DNA from: Desulfuromonadaceae bacterium
GTDB lineage: Bacteria > Desulfobacterota > Desulfuromonadia > Geobacterales > Pseudopelobacteraceae
Direction of reading: 5' to 3'
Length of the DNA: 64,000 bases
Assembly: GCA_028688955.1 (NCBI GenBank)
Contig: JAQTXD010000002.1
Location: 62,001 to 126,000, forward strand
Both the position numbers and the translations under genes were made by a program. The notes below the pieces were generated by a model. That model made no database searches, had not been told where the DNA came from, and saw only the letters and a program-made list of their open reading frames with translations. Shown here piece after piece: positions 11,774-64,000 of the stretch (position 1 is its first letter; each line of letters opens with the position of its first letter).

Positions 11774-12946
11774 ATGAAAAACGCATATATTCTGGCCGCC
11801 TACCGCACCCCCGGCTGCCGGGCAAAAAAAGGAAAACTGAAGGATGTCCGCCCGGATGATCTCGCAGCGGCCGCCATTAGGGGATTGCTGGACAGAACCG
11901 GCATCGACCCACTCGATGTCGAAGACATCATCATCGGCTGTGCCTTTCCCGAAGGGGAACAGGGGATGAACTTTGCCCGTGTCGCAGCGATGAAGGCGGG
12001 TGTACCGGTAGAAGTCCCGGCTCAGACGGTGAACCGATTCTGCTCATCCGGTCTGCAGACAATCGCATCGGCGGCAGAGCGGATCATGGCCGGCTTTGCC
12101 GACTGTATCATCGCCGGAGGAGCCGAGAGCATGAGCATGATTCCGATCGGCGGAAGTAAATACAGCGCCAACCCGTCGCTTATGGCACGCTGGCCGGAGT
12201 CCTTCGCATCAATGGGTATCACGGCAGAACTGGTTGCGGAGAAGTACGGCATCAGCCGTGAAGAACAGGATGTTTTTGCCGCCGCCAGCCATGCCAAAGC
12301 CGCCGCCGCCATTACTGCCGGGAAATTCACCGAAGAAATCATTCCGGTGGAAGTTGAAAACTGTGTCCTTGTCAACGGGAAGATGAAACGAAGCAGCGAA
12401 CTGGTCATCGCGGATGACGGTGTACGTTCTGACACAACCACGGCCGGCCTTGCCAGGCTGAAACCAGCATTCAAGGCGAACGGAACGGTTACCGCCGGCA
12501 ACGCATCCCAGATGACCGATGGGGCCGCAGCGGTGCTGGTCGTATCGGAGGAATATCTTAAAAAGACTGGCAAAAAACCATTGGCCCGTTTCGTCGCTTT
12601 TGCCGTCAAGGGAGTGCCGCCGGAACTGATGGGGATCGGCCCGGTTGCGGCAATTCCTGCCGCCCTGAAGCTGGCCGGCCTGAAGCTCGACGACATCGGC
12701 CTGATCGAACTGAACGAAGCGTTTGCCGCCCAGTCTCTGGCATGCGTGAAGGAACTGGGTATCGACCCGGCACGGATCAACGTCAATGGCGGGGCAATCG
12801 CCCTCGGTCACCCGCTCGGCTGCTCCGGAGCAAAACTGACCGCCAGTATTCTTCAGGAAATGCAGCGGACGGATACCCGCTACGGGATGGTCTCAATGTG
12901 CATCGGTGGCGGTATGGGTGCTGCAGGTATTTTTGAAAAGGTATAG
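11774..12946 (+). CDS. fadA: Acetyl-CoA C-acyltransferase (3-ketoacyl-CoA thiolase)
   Basis: A 390-residue thiolase that cleaves 3-ketoacyl-CoA with CoA, releasing acetyl-CoA. The nucleophilic Cys is in [10 protein letters not shown] near residue 90; the second active-site block [15 protein letters not shown] and the third, [10 protein letters not shown], lie near the C-terminus, all intact. Two ATGs are adjacent; the second (11774) is used here because the GGAGG site is five bases from it but only two from the first (11771). It follows fadN by a short gap and precedes fadE, so the three probably form one transcript. Confidence 0.93.
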
Positions 12947-13038
12947 CACACACCGGTTCATGTTTCGCCCCGTCAGAAGTAATACCGGATACGCATACAT
13001 TGCTTTGCACTACTTATCAAATAATGTGAGGTGACATC

Positions 13039-14817
13039 ATGTCCGCAAAACTATTCAAAGGCGCCGAATATCTCATCACCGCAGCAGATAAGAACGACAT
13101 CTTTACGCCGGAAGATTTCAGCGATGAACAGCGCCAGATTGGCGACACCACCGAGCAGTTTGTGCTGAACGAAGTGATTCCCCACCGTGAGGCGATAGAG
13201 CATCACGACCTGCCGTTGACCGTTGAGTTAATGAAAAAGTGCGGTGAACTGGGTCTGCTGATGATCGATGCGCCGGAGGAATACGGCGGTCTGGAACTGG
13301 ATAAAGCCACCAGCATGCTGGCGGCAGAAAAACTTTCCCAGGCAGGTTCGTTCTCCGTCACCTATTCCGCCCATACCGGTATCGGTACCCTGCCGCTGGT
13401 CTACTACGGTACCAAAGAGCAGAAAGAGCGCTATCTGCACAAGATCATTTCCGGAGAATGGATTGCCGCCTATTGCCTGACCGAGCCCGGCTCCGGAAGT
13501 GACGCTCTCGGTGCGGCGGCAACCGCTACCCTCTCTGCTGACGGGAAGTATTATATCCTCAACGGCACCAAGCAGTTCATCACCAACGGCGGCATCGCAA
13601 ATATATACACCATCTTTGCCAAGATTGACAAACAGCACTTCACCGGTTTCCTGGTCGAACGAACCACGGAGGGACTGAGCGTCGGGCCGGAAGAAAATAA
13701 AATGGGCGTGCGCGGCTCTTCTACAACCCAGATCATCCTCGAAGATGCCAAGGTTCCGGTGGAAAACCTGCTTGGAGAGATTGGCAAAGGACACAAGATC
13801 GCCTTCAATGTCCTCAACGTAGGACGGTTTAAACTGGGGGCGGGCGCCACAGGCGCGGCAAAGACGGCGCTTACCATCGGTATCAGGTATGCCAACGAGC
13901 GGAAAGCTTTCGGTGTCACCATCGGAACCTTCGGAGCCATTCAGGAAAAAATTGCCGATCTGAGCGCCGCTGTCTTTGCCTCGGAATCAGTCGTGTACCG
14001 CCTGGCCGGGCTGATCGACCACCGCCTGGCCACTCTGCCCAAAGGAACGGCGGACTATTATGAGACGTACCAGCAGGGAATTGAGGAATATTCCGTCGAG
14101 TGCGCCATCGTCAAAGTCCTCTGCAGTGAGATGCTTGCTGACGTTGCCGACGGTGTTGTCCAGATTCATGGCGGCTACGGCTTCATTCAGGAATACGCCG
14201 CTGAAGGGTACTATCGCGACGAACGTATCAACCGGATCTGGGAAGGGACCAACGAGATCAACCGGCTGTTGATTCCCGGCATTATCCTCCGCCGCGCCCT
14301 GAAGGGGGAGATCCCTCTGCAGAAAGAGGCGATGAAGGCGTTTGAATCACTGATGTCACCTTCATTTGAAGAGCTGGACGACTCGATACCGTTTGCAGCA
14401 GAGAAAGCGCTTATCGCCAGTCTCAAACAGGCCTTCCTTGTGCTGGCCGGCAGTGCTGTACAGAAGTTTATGGATAAAATCAAGGATGAGCAGGAGATTC
14501 TGATCGCCGTTGCCGACCTGGCCATCAACATCTTTGCTATTGAAAGTATCGTGCTGCGCGCAGAGAAGATCCTGCCGAAATTGAGCGAAGGGAAAAAAGC
14601 CTCCGTCAACGCCGCCGTAAAGGTGTTCACCTTCAACAGCTCGGAAAAATCTGCATCTGCCGCCCGGCGTGCCGCCTATTTCATCGCTGAGGGGGATACC
14701 CTGACAATGCTGCTGGCAGGCATCCGCAGGTTTACCAAGTACGATGCGACCGGACTACTCACGGCGAAACGCCAGCTTGCAGCAGCCTCTCTTGAGGCAG
14801 ACAGGTATATTTTTTAA
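13039..14817 (+). CDS. fadE: Acyl-CoA dehydrogenase (FadE, about 590-residue type)
   Basis: A 592-residue FAD enzyme for the first oxidation step of beta-oxidation. The acyl-CoA dehydrogenase signature AYCLTEPGSGSDALG is near residue 155, a second signature covers GYGFIQEYAAEGYYRDERI, and IWEGTNEI carries the catalytic Glu position. A C-terminal extension of about 190 residues beyond the classic 380-residue core resembles Bacillus FadE (YusJ) and mitochondrial VLCAD. It needs an electron-transfer flavoprotein partner; no etf genes are in the window. The gap of 92 bases to fadA has no obvious terminator. Confidence 0.92.
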   Translation: MSAKLFKGAEYLITAADKNDIFTPEDFSDEQRQIGDTTEQFVLNEVIPHREAIEHHDLPLTVELMKKCGELGLLMIDAPEEYGGLELDKATSMLAAEKLSQAGSFSVTYSAHTGIGTLPLVYYGTKEQKERYLHKIISGEWIAAYCLTEPGSGSDALGAAATATLSADGKYYILNGTKQFITNGGIANIYTIFAKIDKQHFTGFLVERTTEGLSVGPEENKMGVRGSSTTQIILEDAKVPVENLLGEIGKGHKIAFNVLNVGRFKLGAGATGAAKTALTIGIRYANERKAFGVTIGTFGAIQEKIADLSAAVFASESVVYRLAGLIDHRLATLPKGTADYYETYQQGIEEYSVECAIVKVLCSEMLADVADGVVQIHGGYGFIQEYAAEGYYRDERINRIWEGTNEINRLLIPGIILRRALKGEIPLQKEAMKAFESLMSPSFEELDDSIPFAAEKALIASLKQAFLVLAGSAVQKFMDKIKDEQEILIAVADLAINIFAIESIVLRAEKILPKLSEGKKASVNAAVKVFTFNSSEKSASAARRAAYFIAEGDTLTMLLAGIRRFTKYDATGLLTAKRQLAAASLEADRYIF

Positions 14818-14934: not shown

Positions 14935-15873
14935 ATGAACCAGCACACCGTACAGACGCCCTACATCGTGGGGGAAGTCCACTTCTACAGCACCGAACTC
15001 AACGGCACCCCCGTCATGTTTGATACCGGACCACCGACGCCGGAAGGTGAGGCCTGCCTGCACGAGAATGTGGATCTCAAGCGCCTCAAATACGTGTTTA
15101 TCACCCATTGTCACATCGACCATTACGGTCTGGCCAATTATATTCTTCAGCGGAGCGATGCCGAAGTTTTCATCTCACGCCGGGACGCAATTAAGCTTCA
15201 ACACCATAGTGAACGGATGGAGCAGATGGGCAGACTCCTGAATGGATTCGGCTTTGACAATGACTTTACGATGAACGTGAGGGAATCGTTCAGAAAGAAC
15301 AAGATCTTCCCCGAAGCTCCGGAACGCTTCAGGATTATTGAGGAATCTGATGTTCCGGCAGAACTTGGCATCAGTTATCTTCCCTGTCCGGGGCACTCCC
15401 AGAGTGATCTGGTCTATCTGGTCGGGGATACGGCGATAACGGGCGATGTCCTCCTCAGAAATATTTTCCAGGTACCGCTTCTGGATATCGACTTGGACAG
15501 CTTTTCAGGGCGGTTCAAAAATTATGACGTGTACTGCAGCACCCTGCTCAACCTTACCCGGTTGCGCGGCTGCCGGATCATGCCGGGACACCGCCAGTAC
15601 GTCGATGATCTGGACGAAGCGGTCCTTTTCTACGTCAGGACGCTCCTTGTACGGGTGGTGCAGCTGCTTCCCCTCAGGGGACTGGCCATGAATACTATTA
15701 TTGATCAACTCTTTAAAGGAAGAATAACCGAGCCGTTCATACTGTATATGAAAATTTCCGAAATTGTGTTCATGCTGGATTTTCTGGAAAACCCCACCCT
15801 GCTGAGAGCATCTCTCGAGCAGATGGGGCTCTTTGATCAGGTCGCCTCGTTATATGAGGACGTCGCGCACTAG
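14935..15873 (+). CDS. Metallo-beta-lactamase-fold hydrolase
   Basis: A 312-residue MBL-fold protein of unknown substrate. The zinc ligands are visible: THCHIDH near residue 56 (HxHxDH), PCPGHSQSD near 150, TGDVL near 170 and MPGH near 220. A C-terminal helical part of about 90 residues with a putative winged-helix-like shape follows, as in LACTB2-type enzymes. The start at 14935 is preferred because AGGAG lies seven bases upstream. Position inside the fatty-acid cluster suggests hydrolysis of an acyl thioester or lipid-derived ester, which is inference only. Confidence 0.8.
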   Translation: MNQHTVQTPYIVGEVHFYSTELNGTPVMFDTGPPTPEGEACLHENVDLKRLKYVFITHCHIDHYGLANYILQRSDAEVFISRRDAIKLQHHSERMEQMGRLLNGFGFDNDFTMNVRESFRKNKIFPEAPERFRIIEESDVPAELGISYLPCPGHSQSDLVYLVGDTAITGDVLLRNIFQVPLLDIDLDSFSGRFKNYDVYCSTLLNLTRLRGCRIMPGHRQYVDDLDEAVLFYVRTLLVRVVQLLPLRGLAMNTIIDQLFKGRITEPFILYMKISEIVFMLDFLENPTLLRASLEQMGLFDQVASLYEDVAH

Positions 15874-15885
15874 AGGGGAGAAGCA

Positions 15886-17889
15886 ATGAGCGACCCGCTT
15901 TTTGAACCGATTACCATCAACCGCATGGACGTTAAAAACCGTATTTTCATGCCGGCAATGCACCTTAATATGGCAGGAAATTACGGGATCAGCGACCGCC
16001 TGGTGGATTTCTACGTTGAACGGGCCCGTGGCGGAGCCGGCATGATCACCGTCGGCTATGCCACGGTTGATGAGCTCTCCGGCAACCCCGGCAACATAGG
16101 TGCTCATAAAGATGCCTATATTCCCGGCCTGGCACGTCTGGCAGCAGCCATCCGCGACAACGGCGCCCGCTCCTCCGTGCAGTTGAACCATGCCGGGCGC
16201 TACAATCACACCATGCTTACCGGCGGAAAACAGCCGGTGGCCCCCTCTCCCATCCCGTCACGACTGACCCGCGAAACGCCCCATGAACTGACTATCCCGG
16301 AAATTGAAGAGATTATCAGCCGCTTCGCCCAGGCGGCACGACGGATCAGAGAGGCAGGATTCGATGCCGTGGAAATCCTCTCCGGAACCGGGTATTTGAT
16401 CAGTGAATTTCTGTCGCCGCTCACCAACAAGAGGGAGGATCGTTACGGCGGCGACTTTGATGGCCGCTGCAGGTTTGGCCTGGAAGTTATTGCCGCGGTA
16501 CGTTCGGTCGTTGGCACGGAGTTCCCGCTTCTGGTGCGGATGAACGGCAATGAATTCATGAAGGGGGGCTCCAGTCGTGCAGATTTGCAGGAATATGCTG
16601 TCCGGCTGGAGCACGCCGGAGTGGATGCGCTCTGCATCAACGTCGGCTGGCATGAAGCCCAGGTACCCCAGATCGTCACCGAAGTTCCCCGTGGCGTCTT
16701 CGGCTACCTGGCGCGCGGTATAAAGGAACGTGTCACCATTCCGGTGATCGCCAGCCACCGCATCAACGACCCGGACCTTGCCCGAAGCATGATCTCCAAC
16801 GGCTGCTGCGACATGGTGGCGGTCGGACGGGCGCTGATTGCCGACCCGTTTTTCCCGGAAAAAGCCCGGAGCGGCCACGAAGCTGACATCGTCCACTGTG
16901 TTGCCTGCGGGCAGGGATGTTTCGACAACCTGTTCAAGATGAAAGCGGTGGAATGCCTCTGTAACCCGCGGGCCGGCTATGAACGATCACGGGCCATCGG
17001 CAGGACGGACACCCCGCTGAATATTACCGTTGTCGGCGGCGGCGCCGCCGGAATGAGTGCGGCGGCCGCTGCGGCGGAACGCGGACACCGCGTCACTCTC
17101 CACGAATCCGGTAGTCATCTTGGCGGCCAACTGCTGCTTGCCGGCGCACCTCCCGGCCGGGAGGAGTTCCTTGAACTCGCTGCGGATCTGCGGCGGCAGG
17201 TTGAACGAGCCGGCGTAACGGTGGTACTCAACTCTACTGTCAGCGATTCCACACTCACCGGTGACCTACCGGATGCGGTTATCCTTGCCACCGGTGGCCA
17301 ACCGGTCACCCCACCCATTCCCGGTGTCGATCTGCCCCATGTTGTTCAGGCGTGGGATGTACTGACGGAAAGAGTACCAACCGGTCGGCGGGTCGTCATC
17401 ATCGGTGGAGGAGCGGTAGGAATTGAAACGGCACTGCTGTTGGCTGAGAAAGGTACCCTGTCCGGTGAAGCGCTTAAATTCCTGCTCGTGCACGGTGCCG
17501 AATCGGCGGAGGTGCTGCACGATTTGGCGACACGGGGCAGCAAGGAAGTCACCGTCATTGAAATGCTGAAGGAACTGGGCACAAACTTCGGTAAAAGCAC
17601 CCGCTGGGGCATGATGCAGGATGTGGAACGGTTTGGTGTCAAGAGCCGTTCAGCAGCAACGGTTTGCGGGATTACGGCGGATAGCGTCACGATTGAGTGT
17701 AATGGCCGGCAGGAGCATATTCCGGCCGATTCAGTGGTGCTTGCAGTCGGCACCCGTGCCTACAATCCGCTTCAGGAGATTGTCGCTGCACACGGTATTC
17801 CATACCGTGTCACCGGGGACGCACTTCGGCCAGCCATGGTGTTTGATGCCGTCCACCAGGGATTTGCCGCCGGACGTGAAATCGGCTGA
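15886..17889 (+). CDS. 2,4-dienoyl-CoA reductase-like NADH:flavin oxidoreductase
   Basis: A 667-residue protein with the FadH/old-yellow-enzyme architecture. An N-terminal FMN TIM barrel covers about 1-330, the [4Fe-4S] cluster Cys residues are in CVACGQGCFD near 340 plus ECLCNP about 15 residues later, an FAD-binding GGGAAGMSAA is near 383, and an NAD(P)-binding GGGAVGIETA is near 506. FadH reduces 2,4-dienoyl-CoA intermediates so that polyunsaturated acyl chains can be degraded. Related enzymes act on other enoates, so the exact substrate is inferred from the surrounding fad genes. Its stop overlaps a possible upstream start of the next gene. Confidence 0.85.
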   Translation: MSDPLFEPITINRMDVKNRIFMPAMHLNMAGNYGISDRLVDFYVERARGGAGMITVGYATVDELSGNPGNIGAHKDAYIPGLARLAAAIRDNGARSSVQLNHAGRYNHTMLTGGKQPVAPSPIPSRLTRETPHELTIPEIEEIISRFAQAARRIREAGFDAVEILSGTGYLISEFLSPLTNKREDRYGGDFDGRCRFGLEVIAAVRSVVGTEFPLLVRMNGNEFMKGGSSRADLQEYAVRLEHAGVDALCINVGWHEAQVPQIVTEVPRGVFGYLARGIKERVTIPVIASHRINDPDLARSMISNGCCDMVAVGRALIADPFFPEKARSGHEADIVHCVACGQGCFDNLFKMKAVECLCNPRAGYERSRAIGRTDTPLNITVVGGGAAGMSAAAAAAERGHRVTLHESGSHLGGQLLLAGAPPGREEFLELAADLRRQVERAGVTVVLNSTVSDSTLTGDLPDAVILATGGQPVTPPIPGVDLPHVVQAWDVLTERVPTGRRVVIIGGGAVGIETALLLAEKGTLSGEALKFLLVHGAESAEVLHDLATRGSKEVTVIEMLKELGTNFGKSTRWGMMQDVERFGVKSRSAATVCGITADSVTIECNGRQEHIPADSVVLAVGTRAYNPLQEIVAAHGIPYRVTGDALRPAMVFDAVHQGFAAGREIG

Positions 17890-60153: not shown

Positions 60154-60171
60154 GTTTGAAATTGGTAAAGG

Positions 60172-60401
60172 CTATGAAGAGGAGTAGTAACCATTTACAT
60201 GCTTTTCAGAGAGCCGGTGGTTGGTGTGAACCGGTAAGCATTGTGGTGAACTCGCCTTGGAGCCGCTCTGGTGACAGGTAGTCAGAGTCGTGAGCCTGCG
60301 TAAAAGGCGCATCAAGGCCCGGTAGTTTTCGGGCGAATTGGGTGGTACCGCGGATGGCTCAAAACCTCTGCCCCAAATACATGGGGTGGAGGTTTTTTTT
60401 T
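60172..60401 (+). ncRNA. T-box riboswitch (leucine) with intrinsic terminator
   Basis: The leader of leuA has all T-box parts. The 5' stem I start GAAGAGGAGTAGTAA (60176-60190) is followed by the AG-bulge region AGAGAGCCGG and the specifier loop GTGAACTCG with the codon CTC at 60251-60253 (leucine). The conserved T-box GGGTGGTACCGCGG lies at 60340-60353. A terminator hairpin (AACCTC..CCCC / GGGG..GAGGTT) with a run of nine T ends at 60401. Uncharged tRNA-Leu should bind the specifier and the T-box and allow read-through. T-boxes are mainly a Firmicutes device; leuA T-boxes in Geobacter-type bacteria are a known exception. Confidence 0.92.
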
Positions 60402-60478: not shown

Positions 60479-62032
60479 ATGGCAAAAGCAGCGAAGAAAG
60501 ATGACCGGAAGATTATCAGAATTTTTGATACGACATTGAGAGATGGCGAGCAGGCGCCTGGCAACAGCATGAACATTGAAGAAAAGCTGCGGATTGCCAG
60601 ACAGCTGCAGAAACTGAATGTCGATGTCATCGAGGCCGGCTTTCCAATCGCATCCGATGGTGATTTCGAAGCGGTCAAGAAGATTGCACAGACAATCAAA
60701 GGGCCAGAGATAGCGGGACTCTGCCGTTCCAGTGAGAAAGATATTGATCGTGCCTGGGAAGCACTGAAATACGCCGGCGATAAAGGGCGCATCCACACCT
60801 TTATTGCCACCTCCGATATCCACATGAAATACAAGCTGCAGATGGAGCCTGCTAAAGTCCTTGCTTCAGCAGTCAAGGCGGTTAAACGTGCAGCGTCATA
60901 TACAGCCAACGTTGAATTTTCCTGTGAAGATGCCGTCCGCACCCGCTTGCCGTTCCTTGCCGAAGTTGTTGAGGCTGTGATTGCCGCCGGAGCAACAACC
61001 GTAAACATCCCGGATACGGTTGGCTACACGGTACCGTTTGAATATTTTAACATCATCAAGTTTTTAAAAGATACGGTACCAAATATTGACAAAGCGATCA
61101 TCTCGGTTCACTGCCATAACGATCTTGGCCTGTCTGTAGCAAACTCAATCGCTGCCATACAAGCTGGAGCCGGTCAGGTTGAATGTACCATCAATGGGAT
61201 TGGCGAGCGGGCGGGGAACTGTTCACTGGAAGAATTTGTCATGATTTTAAAAACCCGCAGGGATATCCTCCCCTTTGCAACCAACGTAGTGACAGAGCAG
61301 CTGACACCGACCAGCCGTTTATTAACGACGGTCACCGGCATTGCCGTGCAGCCGAACAAGTCCATCGTCGGTGCAAACGCCTTTGCCCATGAGGCAGGTA
61401 TCCACCAGCACGGCATGCTCATGGATAAAACCACCTATGAAATTATGACGCCTGAATCGGTCGGCCTTCTGTCCAGCGCCCTGGTGCTGGGTAAACACTC
61501 CGGACGGCATGCCTTTAAAAAACGCCTGGAAGAACTTGGACATGACCTGGATGATGACAGGCTTAATCGTGCGTTTGATCGCTTCAAAGATCTGGCTGAC
61601 TTGAAAAAAGAGGTCTTTGATGAGGACCTGGACGCCATTGTAACAGATGAGGCCCGCGAAGAAGACCACTTCAAACTGGACCATGTCACCGTAACCTGCG
61701 GCTCCTTTGCAGTCGCGACAGCTACCGTCCAGATGGAAATCAACGGCGTCACAGTGCGCACAGCAGAGCTTGGTGATGGTCCGGTTGATTCAACATTCAA
61801 GGCAATCAAGAAGCTGACCAAGTCAAAATCAAAACTGACACAGTACAATGTCGGATCAATTACCGGAGGCACTGATGCCCAGGGTGAAGTGACGGTAAGG
61901 GTGGCTGAGGGGAACCATATAGTTGTCGGGAAAGGTTCATCGACTGACATTATCGTCGCCTCGGCAAAGGCGTATATCCATGCTCTCAACCGATTGAATA
62001 ACAAGCAGAAAAGGCTCATGGACGTGCTTTGA
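60479..62032 (+). CDS. leuA: 2-isopropylmalate synthase
   Basis: A 517-residue enzyme for the first committed step of leucine synthesis, joining acetyl-CoA and 2-ketoisovalerate. The catalytic domain has DTTLRDGEQAPGNSMN near the start, metal ligands in SVHCHNDLGLSVAN, and the signature NGIGERAGNCSLEEFVM. The C-terminal LeuA regulatory domain (about 385-517) should bind leucine for feedback inhibition. Citramalate synthase is a relative, but the DGEQAPGNSM opening and the leucine T-box favour LeuA. So the gene is controlled both by tRNA charging and by product. Confidence 0.95.
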   Translation: MAKAAKKDDRKIIRIFDTTLRDGEQAPGNSMNIEEKLRIARQLQKLNVDVIEAGFPIASDGDFEAVKKIAQTIKGPEIAGLCRSSEKDIDRAWEALKYAGDKGRIHTFIATSDIHMKYKLQMEPAKVLASAVKAVKRAASYTANVEFSCEDAVRTRLPFLAEVVEAVIAAGATTVNIPDTVGYTVPFEYFNIIKFLKDTVPNIDKAIISVHCHNDLGLSVANSIAAIQAGAGQVECTINGIGERAGNCSLEEFVMILKTRRDILPFATNVVTEQLTPTSRLLTTVTGIAVQPNKSIVGANAFAHEAGIHQHGMLMDKTTYEIMTPESVGLLSSALVLGKHSGRHAFKKRLEELGHDLDDDRLNRAFDRFKDLADLKKEVFDEDLDAIVTDEAREEDHFKLDHVTVTCGSFAVATATVQMEINGVTVRTAELGDGPVDSTFKAIKKLTKSKSKLTQYNVGSITGGTDAQGEVTVRVAEGNHIVVGKGSSTDIIVASAKAYIHALNRLNNKQKRLMDVL

Positions 62033-62163: not shown

Positions 62164-62240
62164 TAACGATAATACTAAACCATCTGTGAGGATGGGACGG
62201 AAAGCCTATAGGGTCTCACTGAGACAGCCGGGTTGCCGAA
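62164..62240 (+). ncRNA. GEMM-Ib riboswitch aptamer, probable cyclic AMP-GMP sensor
   Basis: The aptamer shows AATACTAAACC at the 5' strand, a P2 stem CCATC/GATGG capped by a GNRA-type GTGA loop, the core GGGACGGAAAGCC (62193-62205), a P3 stem GTCTC/GAGAC, and the 3' strand ACAGCCGGGTTGCCGAA. The residue equivalent to G20 of the c-di-GMP class appears to be A (62174), which marks the Geobacter cGAMP-responsive subtype; several stretches agree with the crystallised Geobacter cGAMP aptamer as I remember it. A TTGACA (62102-62107) upstream is the likely -35. The 3' strand overlaps a terminator, so ligand binding should turn expression on. Confidence 0.9.
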
Positions 62241-62273
62241 TATGTTCTATTTTGGCAACCCGGCTTTTATTTG
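62226..62273 (+). terminator. Ligand-controlled terminator of the GEMM-Ib riboswitch
   Basis: AGCCGGGTTGCC (62226-62237) pairs perfectly over 12 bases with GGCAACCCGGCT (62254-62265), followed by TTTATTTG. The left arm is also the 3' strand of the aptamer, so aptamer folding and termination are mutually exclusive, giving a transcriptional on-switch. It lies 75 bases before the porin start. Confidence 0.9.
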
Positions 62274-62347
62274 TGCTCGTTCCAGAGGATGACTGCATCG
62301 ACAACGACAACTATCTGTTTTTCCATTATACTTCAGGAGCCTGTCCA

Positions 62348-63667
62348 ATGAAAAAGACCTGTTGCACCCTGCTCTGTGCAGCGTCACTTACAGTTACTCC
62401 CTTTGGTGTCATGGCGGCCGATGTAAGCGTTGACTCCACAACTCTGCTCGGCATCGGCCAACGGGATGTTGCCGGTGCTTCGAAAGAGAGCCTGCTCCCT
62501 GCCACCCAGTTTCTGGGCCTTAGCGCCGATAAACTTGCCGACGGCAACCTCTCGCTGCACCTGTATGGCTGGGGTCGTGCCGATCTGGGCGACAAAAGCT
62601 ACAACGACGAAAAAGCCGCTGGAAGTCTCACCTATGCATACCTTCAGTATCGCTTCAAAGAGGCTAACGCCAATATCCGCGCCGGACGACACTTTATCCG
62701 CGAAGGTATCGTCAATGAACAGCTTGATGGTATAAGCGCCCGTACCGACCTGCCCTTGGGCTTTGGCCTGTCGGCCTTCGGCGGAGCCACCGTACACACC
62801 ACACACATAAGTGGTGAAAGCAGCGACGGAAAAGGTGATTCACTCTATGGCGGCCGTGCCAACTACCGCTACAAGGGTCTGCTGGAGATTGGGCTCTCCG
62901 GCATTTATGAAAGTGCCGCACCGAAACTTACTCCCCCCCATTTTGCAGGTGACTATCGTCGTGTCGGGACAGATCTCTGGCTCACTCCGTTCCAGACAAT
63001 CGACATCATAGGCCACAGCAGCTACAACCCGGTAACAAAAAAAATAGCCGAACACACCTACCTGCTCAACTACAAGCCAACTCAACAGACTGTGCTGACG
63101 GGTGAATTTAACCAACATAACGAACAAAGTTATCTGTATGCCTGGACCATGTTCTCTGCAGCCGCCCTTAACCCCAACGACAAATCAACGTCAATCGGCC
63201 TGAGCGGTTCTTACGAAGTAAACAAAAACCTTGAAGTTGCCGGTGACTACAAACACTATAAACGTGAATTCGGCAGCGCCAACCGCTTTGGCGGTGATGT
63301 CCGCGTTAAATATAACGACAACTCAATTCGTGGCGGCATTGGCTATCACTACCTTGATGCAGGTGAAGGGTTCGCAATCGGCACTAATCCGTCGGCTTCC
63401 TACCATGAACTACGCTGTTTCATCATGCGAGACAGTAAGAGTTACTTCACCGCCATCGATCTGCTCGGCGACATTTTCAAAGATAAAATCTACAACGAAA
63501 CCAGCGCGTGGGAAGCAATTGCCTCACTCGGCTACCACATTACCCCAGCACTGGCGCTGTCCGGAGACTTCAGCTACGGCAGAAATCCTCAATTTACCGA
63601 AGAGGCCAAAGCGCTTCTCCGCTTGACCTACAACATGACCTACCCCGGCATAGGAGGGAAGAAATGA
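62348..63667 (+). CDS. Outer membrane porin-like protein of a cytochrome conduit
   Basis: A 439-residue beta-barrel-type protein without haem motifs. The start MKKTCCTLLCAAS has AGGAG upstream and begins a signal peptide cleaved near VMAA; a longer frame running back into the riboswitch is not coding. The body alternates polar and hydrophobic residues as in porins (LSLHLYGWGRADLG, AYLQYRFKEANANIRAGRHF) with many Tyr/Trp girdle positions. Its stop overlaps the start of a multihaem lipoprotein cytochrome, so together they resemble porin-cytochrome conduits used to carry electrons across the outer membrane in Geobacter. Similarity to a specific ext or pcc gene was not established. Confidence 0.8.
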   Translation: MKKTCCTLLCAASLTVTPFGVMAADVSVDSTTLLGIGQRDVAGASKESLLPATQFLGLSADKLADGNLSLHLYGWGRADLGDKSYNDEKAAGSLTYAYLQYRFKEANANIRAGRHFIREGIVNEQLDGISARTDLPLGFGLSAFGGATVHTTHISGESSDGKGDSLYGGRANYRYKGLLEIGLSGIYESAAPKLTPPHFAGDYRRVGTDLWLTPFQTIDIIGHSSYNPVTKKIAEHTYLLNYKPTQQTVLTGEFNQHNEQSYLYAWTMFSAAALNPNDKSTSIGLSGSYEVNKNLEVAGDYKHYKREFGSANRFGGDVRVKYNDNSIRGGIGYHYLDAGEGFAIGTNPSASYHELRCFIMRDSKSYFTAIDLLGDIFKDKIYNETSAWEAIASLGYHITPALALSGDFSYGRNPQFTEEAKALLRLTYNMTYPGIGGKK

Positions 63668-64000
63668 ACCGTACGCACCTGACACTCCCACTCCTGGCAG
63701 TCGCCGGGCTTTTTGCCCTACTGGCATCCTGTGCCCAGATGAAGGCGATTCCCGGGCTTCCCGCCTCACACCCGGAAGCCCTCGCCGTCGGTCAGCAGGT
63801 AAACTGCGCCGAATGTCACGAGGATCAGCAAAAAGGGACCATGAAAGCCTTCAACGCTTTTAACCACAGCCAATCCTTCGTTAAGAATCACCGCTTTTAC
63901 GCTGCATCAGATGACCGGCTCTGTTCAACCTGCCACAAAGCGTCCTTCTGCGCAGACTGCCACACCAACAAAGTTGAAATGAAACCGTCCACCAGATACG
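63664..64000 (+). CDS. Multihaem c-type cytochrome lipoprotein, 5' part (runs off right edge)
   Basis: The first 112 codons of a cytochrome. The signal peptide ends in the lipobox LLASC (Cys at about residue 23), which predicts a lipid anchor. Three CxxCH haem sites are already visible: CAECH, CSTCH and CADCH. Its ATG overlaps the porin stop (ATGA), so translation is coupled. Under the cGAMP riboswitch it likely forms, with the porin, an outer membrane electron conduit; number of haems and topology need the missing 3' part. Confidence 0.9.
   Translation, partial: MNRTHLTLPLLAVAGLFALLASCAQMKAIPGLPASHPEALAVGQQVNCAECHEDQQKGTMKAFNAFNHSQSFVKNHRFYAASDDRLCSTCHKASFCADCHTNKVEMKPSTRY

Follow-up and report, generated by a model that had tools for sequence, protein, structure and literature searches.

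The 64,000-nucleotide stretch of Desulfuromonadaceae DNA analysed here (the window) ends in a riboswitch-like leader followed by a porin-like gene and the beginning of a cytochrome gene, which raises the question of what ligand this leader senses and what the genes behind it build. The first-pass annotation, made from the letters of the sequence, proposed that 3′,3′-cGAMP induces an outer membrane electron conduit at this site. We find it probable that the element is a GEMM-Ib transcriptional cGAMP ON-switch placed before an extracellular electron-transfer operon, whereas the term conduit calls for more reserve. The features on which the argument turns are listed below in window numbering, which is also used for features beyond the window end.

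60165..60378, plus strand: T-box leader before leuA, a separate regulator (123.6 bits)
60479..62032, plus strand: leuA-like gene upstream, outside the target of the switch
62164..62240, plus strand: GEMM-I aptamer, cGAMP (GEMM-Ib) type by RF01051 match and A-type core
62226..62274, plus strand: intrinsic terminator with arms 62226-62240 and 62251-62265 and a U-rich tail, 62266-62274
62335..62339, plus strand: AGGAG resembling a ribosome-binding site, 8 nt ahead of the barrel ATG, by reading of the sequence
62348-63667, plus strand: porin-like barrel protein of 439 aa with weak family matches; opens the row of genes below the switch
63664-64140, plus strand: pentaheme c-type cytochrome lipoprotein, 5 CxxCH, lipobox LASC by eye; ends beyond the window
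64154-65344, plus strand: lipoprotein with 8 CxxCH and 3 CxxxxCH
65403-67997, plus strand: NHL/Glucodextran_B (NHL/Ig) protein
68070-68576, plus strand: small lipoprotein
68623-72735, plus strand: giant cytochrome, 26 CxxCH
72800-76606, plus strand: giant cytochrome, 23 CxxCH
76704-79010, plus strand: giant cytochrome, 14 CxxCH
about 78880 to the contig end, plus strand: last frame

Aptamer and terminator share one strand

Two Rfam elements lie above cut-off in the window, the T-box before leuA and a GEMM-I aptamer at 62164-62240 (+). The latter scores 49.6 bits (E 1.1e-6 with the whole window as search space) with RF01051 (c-di-GMP-I, GEMM-I), which has a gathering score of 35, and the c-di-GMP-I-GGC sub-family model gives it 47.1 bits, below that model's own cut-off of 59. 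The model R1, built from 16 A-type aptamers (13 of the window's genome and three orthologous sites), scores it at 101.9 bits, with the window aptamer itself in the training set. In the RF01051 alignment, A62174 occupies the column in which the consensus GGC has its first G. We take this residue to be the ligand-selecting position known as ‘G20’ in Vc2. The P2 loop at 62186-62189 is GUGA, a GNRA loop. The first-pass annotation had described a GEMM aptamer with A at the key ligand-contact position and a GNRA loop on P2, and had proposed the comparison of Rfam GEMM classes; its description holds on each of these counts. Folded alone, the aptamer reaches -22.1 kcal/mol (z -2.21; 7 of 200 shuffles equally stable), only moderately better than its shuffles. 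The consensus pairing of the 16 A-type sequences comprises 17 pairs, one of which is broken in one sequence; two-sided changes are seen at four of the 17, all in P2, and outside P2 no pair changes on more than one side, so that covariation speaks for P2 only.

The 5′ arm of the terminator (62226-62240) is the 3′ strand of the aptamer, and the two structures therefore compete for it. The stem has the 12 strict Watson-Crick pairs that had been noted at first pass, and 15 pairs when one G-U and two further A-U pairs are counted. With its 10-nt loop it folds at -27.6 kcal/mol (z -6.97; none of 200 shuffles equally stable), and in the fold of the full leader (-43.1 kcal/mol) the aptamer 3′ strand sits in the 15-bp terminator. 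A simple terminator scan did not list the 62226-62274 stem, probably because this loop exceeds the 3-8 nt that the scan permits. Throughout the genome, all 13 A-type sites have a stem of at least six pairs (6 to 19) that starts in the aptamer 3′ strand. Tail U residues are few at two of them: C159_11895, with 7 pairs and 4 tail U, may lack a terminator; at C184_163 the tail contains 3 U and follows an arm that itself ends in U.

Sequence and folding together give the anatomy of the element and its two competing folds, and the shared strand gives good support to an ON-type platform, the direction of which we infer from this arrangement. In the absence of ligand, the aptamer 3′ strand would pair downstream, the terminator would form and transcription would stop before the barrel gene. 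With 3′,3′-cGAMP bound, the strand would be kept in the aptamer, no terminator would form and the polymerase would read into the barrel gene; read-through would then yield the barrel, two multiheme lipoproteins, the NHL/Ig protein, the small lipoprotein and the giant multiheme cytochromes.

Genes below the switch and the case for a conduit

The porin frame (62348-63667) is followed by a CxxCH cytochrome that begins at 63664, its start overlapping the barrel stop as ATGA, just as first annotated. Extension of the contig, a check suggested at the same time, reveals a cluster far longer than the window displays, up to giant cytochromes: the contig runs 15,994 bases beyond the window, all cluster genes lie on the plus strand, and their spacing suggests one transcript. 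In their 3′ parts, the first two giant cytochrome genes agree at every base of a 1963-bp stretch (100% identity; 70777-72739 and 74648-76610, or 11778-13740 and 15649-17611 of locus L017), a pattern that points to recent duplication or conversion, or to an assembly fault. Repeats in the giant cytochromes (L017 11751-18967) are mostly 291 or 294 nt apart (about 97 aa), with ten copies in register at 60-100% identity. A loose text match (L017 6368) had offered a second switch before the NHL gene of this operon, and was rejected as the covariance model finds nothing there.

Of the 76 genomes searched in the family, 51 have the barrel gene (E 1e-10); at the level of the order, the pentaheme protein is found in 116 of 141 (E 1e-5). 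Sixty loci were compared, comprising 38 named loci, four chosen stretches (the window as L017, L165, L167 and L169) and 18 of 20 further stretches; L166, L168, L187 and L189, which are duplicates, and L170, a distant paralogue in the window's genome, stand outside the 60.

Otero 2018 (PMC6148476) defines a conduit by three components, a multiheme cytochrome in the periplasm, a barrel in the outer membrane and an outer lipoprotein; ExtB, ExtC (5 hemes) and ExtD (12 hemes) are described there, as are clusters without extA nearby. The barrel protein of the window matches OMP_b-brl at E 0.022, under the cut-off. Among 30 aligned members of its family, 11 match OMP_b-brl (best 8.4e-5) and two match MtrB_PioB (best 4.4e-4). 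A search of the PDB gave no relative of the barrel protein, and its beta-amphipathicity did not stand out (z 0.9), a value that is uninformative. Across five genomes from two other genera the barrel profile had no match, in a search run without positive control and with G. sulfurreducens not identified among the five; the barrel as an ExtB homologue was set aside on this result, to which the same limit applies. Pentaheme orthologues in Geobacter-type genomes were also rejected, the 34-37% matches sitting in open frames of 236-262 aa and one more, at 26%, being weaker. The weak barrel matches and the negative outcomes in the PDB and in the five genomes are the reason why we call the barrel-cytochrome unit conduit-like, ‘conduit’ being a plausible name for it.

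The claim of an outer membrane electron conduit stands in part. The order of barrel and cytochromes agrees with it, whereas the outer-membrane barrel matches are weak, the stretch read to the contig end contains no small periplasmic multiheme partner, and the two cytochromes beside the barrel (5 CxxCH, then 8 CxxCH with 3 CxxxxCH) are both lipoprotein-like, with lipoboxes seen by eye that would place them at the outer surface. This absent partner, the weak matches to general porin families, and the NHL/Ig protein and giant cytochromes, which suggest surface or filament roles, would also suit a genuine switch without a conduit, with the barrel as a common porin or a channel of adhesin type and the cytochromes acting on their own at the surface. 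We consider this unlikely, as the pentaheme gene accompanies the barrel in 58 of the 60 loci (both misses at a contig end), MtrB_PioB is matched by two of the 30 members, and the gene order resembles ExtBCD, known also without extA nearby. A conduit-like unit with a proposed role in electron transport is the reading that we retain.

Ligand class

The window's genome has 16 matches to RF01051, 15 of them above cut-off. Read side by side, 13 of the 15 are of A type and two have the canonical GGC core; the A-type core reads A(A/C)UACUAAAC...CGGAAA in all 13 and carries A at the selectivity position. Four tandem pairs of A-type aptamers (G000 contigs C94, C159, C180 and C181), 143-200 bp from start to start, precede genes with exported-looking products, as judged by eye. 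R1 sites also occur in another genus of the order: four of its genomes have 8, 14, 16 and 18, one of the 18 being weak (37 bits). Two of the 30 R1 sites retrieved as loci from the other genus precede a PilM-type gene (L198 and L203; identified as PilM by family search in L198 only), and the window aptamer is identical to the aptamers of these two at 70 of 77 positions, which suggests a preference for 3′,3′-cGAMP. PMC9262584 describes the pilM riboswitch of G. metallireducens as a cGAMP ON-switch in which aptamer and terminator are mutually exclusive.

A candidate source of the ligand lies among the GGDEF proteins. The genome has 33 GGDEF matches, of which 30 were retrieved as loci and 28 have a readable motif (19 by a first pattern and 9 more by a second; L051 and L059 gave none). 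The selectivity position is Asp in 26 of the 28 and Ser in L053, a Rec+GGDEF protein (C77:2085-2555) in which Ser343 and D369 are spaced by 26, as are S347 and D373 of GacA. L053 is thus a predicted GacA-like cGAMP synthase, a Hypr GGDEF with Ser. The remaining protein, L055 (G000:C74:3113-3568), has Asn where 26 of the 28 have Asp and the GacA-like one Ser. The genome is rated by tool as 98.98% complete and 5.91% contaminated, so that a few of the switch sites or the synthase gene could be foreign. PMC6456294 describes variants of GacA at S347 and D373 and reports that deletion of gacA lowers transcripts below GEMM-Ib switches, that A20G in a GEMM-Ib aptamer switches its selectivity to c-di-GMP, and that the omcST switch of Geobacter answers to both dinucleotides.

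The last of these observations bears on a different assignment, in which the aptamer is promiscuous or senses mainly c-di-GMP and the operon answers to attachment signalling by c-di-GMP. In its favour, the c-di-GMP-I family supplies the best general Rfam model, and PMC12285248 reports an odd expression pattern in G. metallireducens, where several predicted cGAMP-activated genes rose in the strain that has lower cGAMP and higher c-di-GMP. Nevertheless, all 13 A-type sites have A at the selectivity position where the other two have G, the window aptamer is close to those before the two pilM-type genes, and a Hypr-like synthase is encoded, all of which make this assignment rather improbable. The cGAMP class assigned at first pass is accordingly well supported, by the A-type core and this identity and also by the clean split of the genome's aptamers into two types and the GacA-like synthase gene, and the element is likely a cGAMP ON-switch.

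Position of the switch among relatives

Switch sites in the 60 loci were found with the R1 model. In four loci (the window, L113, L091 and L169) the switch is at the front, 184-293 bp before the barrel start, and in seven (L097, L098, L099, L100, L101, L105 and L116) it is internal, 3.1-4.4 kb after the barrel start; L099, L100 and L101 are near-copies, so that the independent internal cases number fewer than seven. An internal switch lies between a multiheme cytochrome gene, whose stop precedes the switch start by 84-132 bp, and the NHL gene; L105 is tandem, its second copy starting 412 bp after the cytochrome stop. The other 49 loci have no switch in the cluster. One of them, L095, has two switches on the opposite strand, some 5 kb upstream; two more, L180 and L181, break off at the barrel, so that a front switch would be out of sight. 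A match to RF03168 in L089 was rejected as an A-type switch: it has a GGC core, lies on the other strand and gets 25.1 bits from the A-type model. Four genomes, including that of the window, share the order leuA, switch, barrel, 5-heme gene and next cytochrome, and leuA adjoins all four front-type loci. It is very improbable that the switch is inert here, or terminates at all ligand levels, with the operon read from a promoter below it, since promoter-like hexamers beneath the aptamer at 62304-62332 are a consensus match only (3 sites in the stretch against 0.7 in shuffles), whereas the leader combines an intact aptamer core with a strong terminator and is found at the same place in four genomes.

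The window's genome contains a second barrel/5-heme/cytochrome set on contig C205 (G000:C205:53719-55505; L165 4720-7912), with 82% and 95% identity. This set has no switch, NHL gene or giant cytochrome genes, and its third gene reads as two frames. In a relative, G040, a full second set without a switch lies beside a gene that appears by eye to be response-regulator-like.

The association of the switch with giant cytochromes was assessed in the 54 loci that offer 4.5 kb or more of downstream sequence (L127, L098, L179, L108, L109 and L176 were dropped). Nine loci have both, six a giant cytochrome without the switch, one the switch without a giant cytochrome and 38 neither, giving a Fisher p of 8e-6 that ignores kinship. 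Counts that likewise ignore kinship place the switch, at the leuA locus, in 9/9 clusters with the NHL gene and in 1/9 of those without it and with enough sequence, and in 1/8 clusters that have the NHL gene with no leuA seen beside it. A kinship-corrected version, with the NHL gene as trait and L108 and L109 dropped for short flanks, gave only four independent pairs on starred branches and no significance (median sign-test p 0.5). In the tree of 46 barrel proteins (8 divergent ones of 54 full-length left out; midpoint root for drawing only), a single group of 22 rows (96/95) contains all 11 loci with a switch, alongside 11 switch-less loci. A 13-row subgroup inside it holds all four front loci and the internal L098, and the other six internal loci branch outside this subgroup. 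The states front, internal and none need seven changes on the tree.

From these patterns cGAMP control seems to be tied to the NHL/giant-cytochrome module, and in the window it seems to cover the whole cluster. The shift in switch position among relatives is suggestive. One reading is that the switch moved from inside to the front, and most of the earlier-branching switch-bearing lineages do have it mid-operon; separate gains and losses are another. That the switch belongs to the module and has changed place within one operon is a tentative proposal, to which we give slightly less than even credence. If it is true, lineages with an internal switch could express the barrel-cytochrome genes without cGAMP and the extracellular module alone would wait for the messenger, whereas in the window and its three front-type relatives the messenger would gate the whole unit. 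A second, switch-less set would then provide one always-ready and one cGAMP-gated unit in the same genome.

Comparison with known systems

The order of barrel, 5-heme lipoprotein and larger multiheme lipoprotein approximates ExtB-ExtC-ExtD in ExtABCD of Geobacter sulfurreducens, as presented in PMC6148476, from which the window cluster differs by lacking an ExtA-like gene in the stretch and by adding NHL and giant cytochrome genes. It also resembles the OetI-type conduits of syntrophic sulfate reducers, which according to PMC10553843 unite a barrel, cytochrome lipoproteins and extracellular cytochromes in one cassette; this likeness is one of gene content by description, set beside the window cluster. 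In the available text of the literature searched, no cGAMP switch is described ahead of a barrel-cytochrome cluster, although the target lists of 2015 (Kellenberger, Nelson) could contain the gene set. The element is a well-formed GEMM-Ib member at a target not found described in that literature, and through it cGAMP would have a direct link to a barrel-cytochrome unit, the step across the outer membrane, beyond pili and surface cytochromes.

As a switch it is ordinary for these bacteria, and its interest lies in its place before these genes and in the shifting of that place in relatives. It shares with the Geobacter GEMM-Ib switches of pilM, pgcA (GSU1761) and omcAHG (GSU2885-2882) the A-type core, the GNRA loop on P2, a terminator that uses the aptamer 3′ strand and targets in extracellular electron transfer. 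Unlike those switches, it has a target that begins with a barrel and a pentaheme lipoprotein, and relatives of the window carry a switch of this type within the cluster. The two placements, front and internal, may represent a natural experiment in which the place of a riboswitch within an operon decides which genes the messenger controls.
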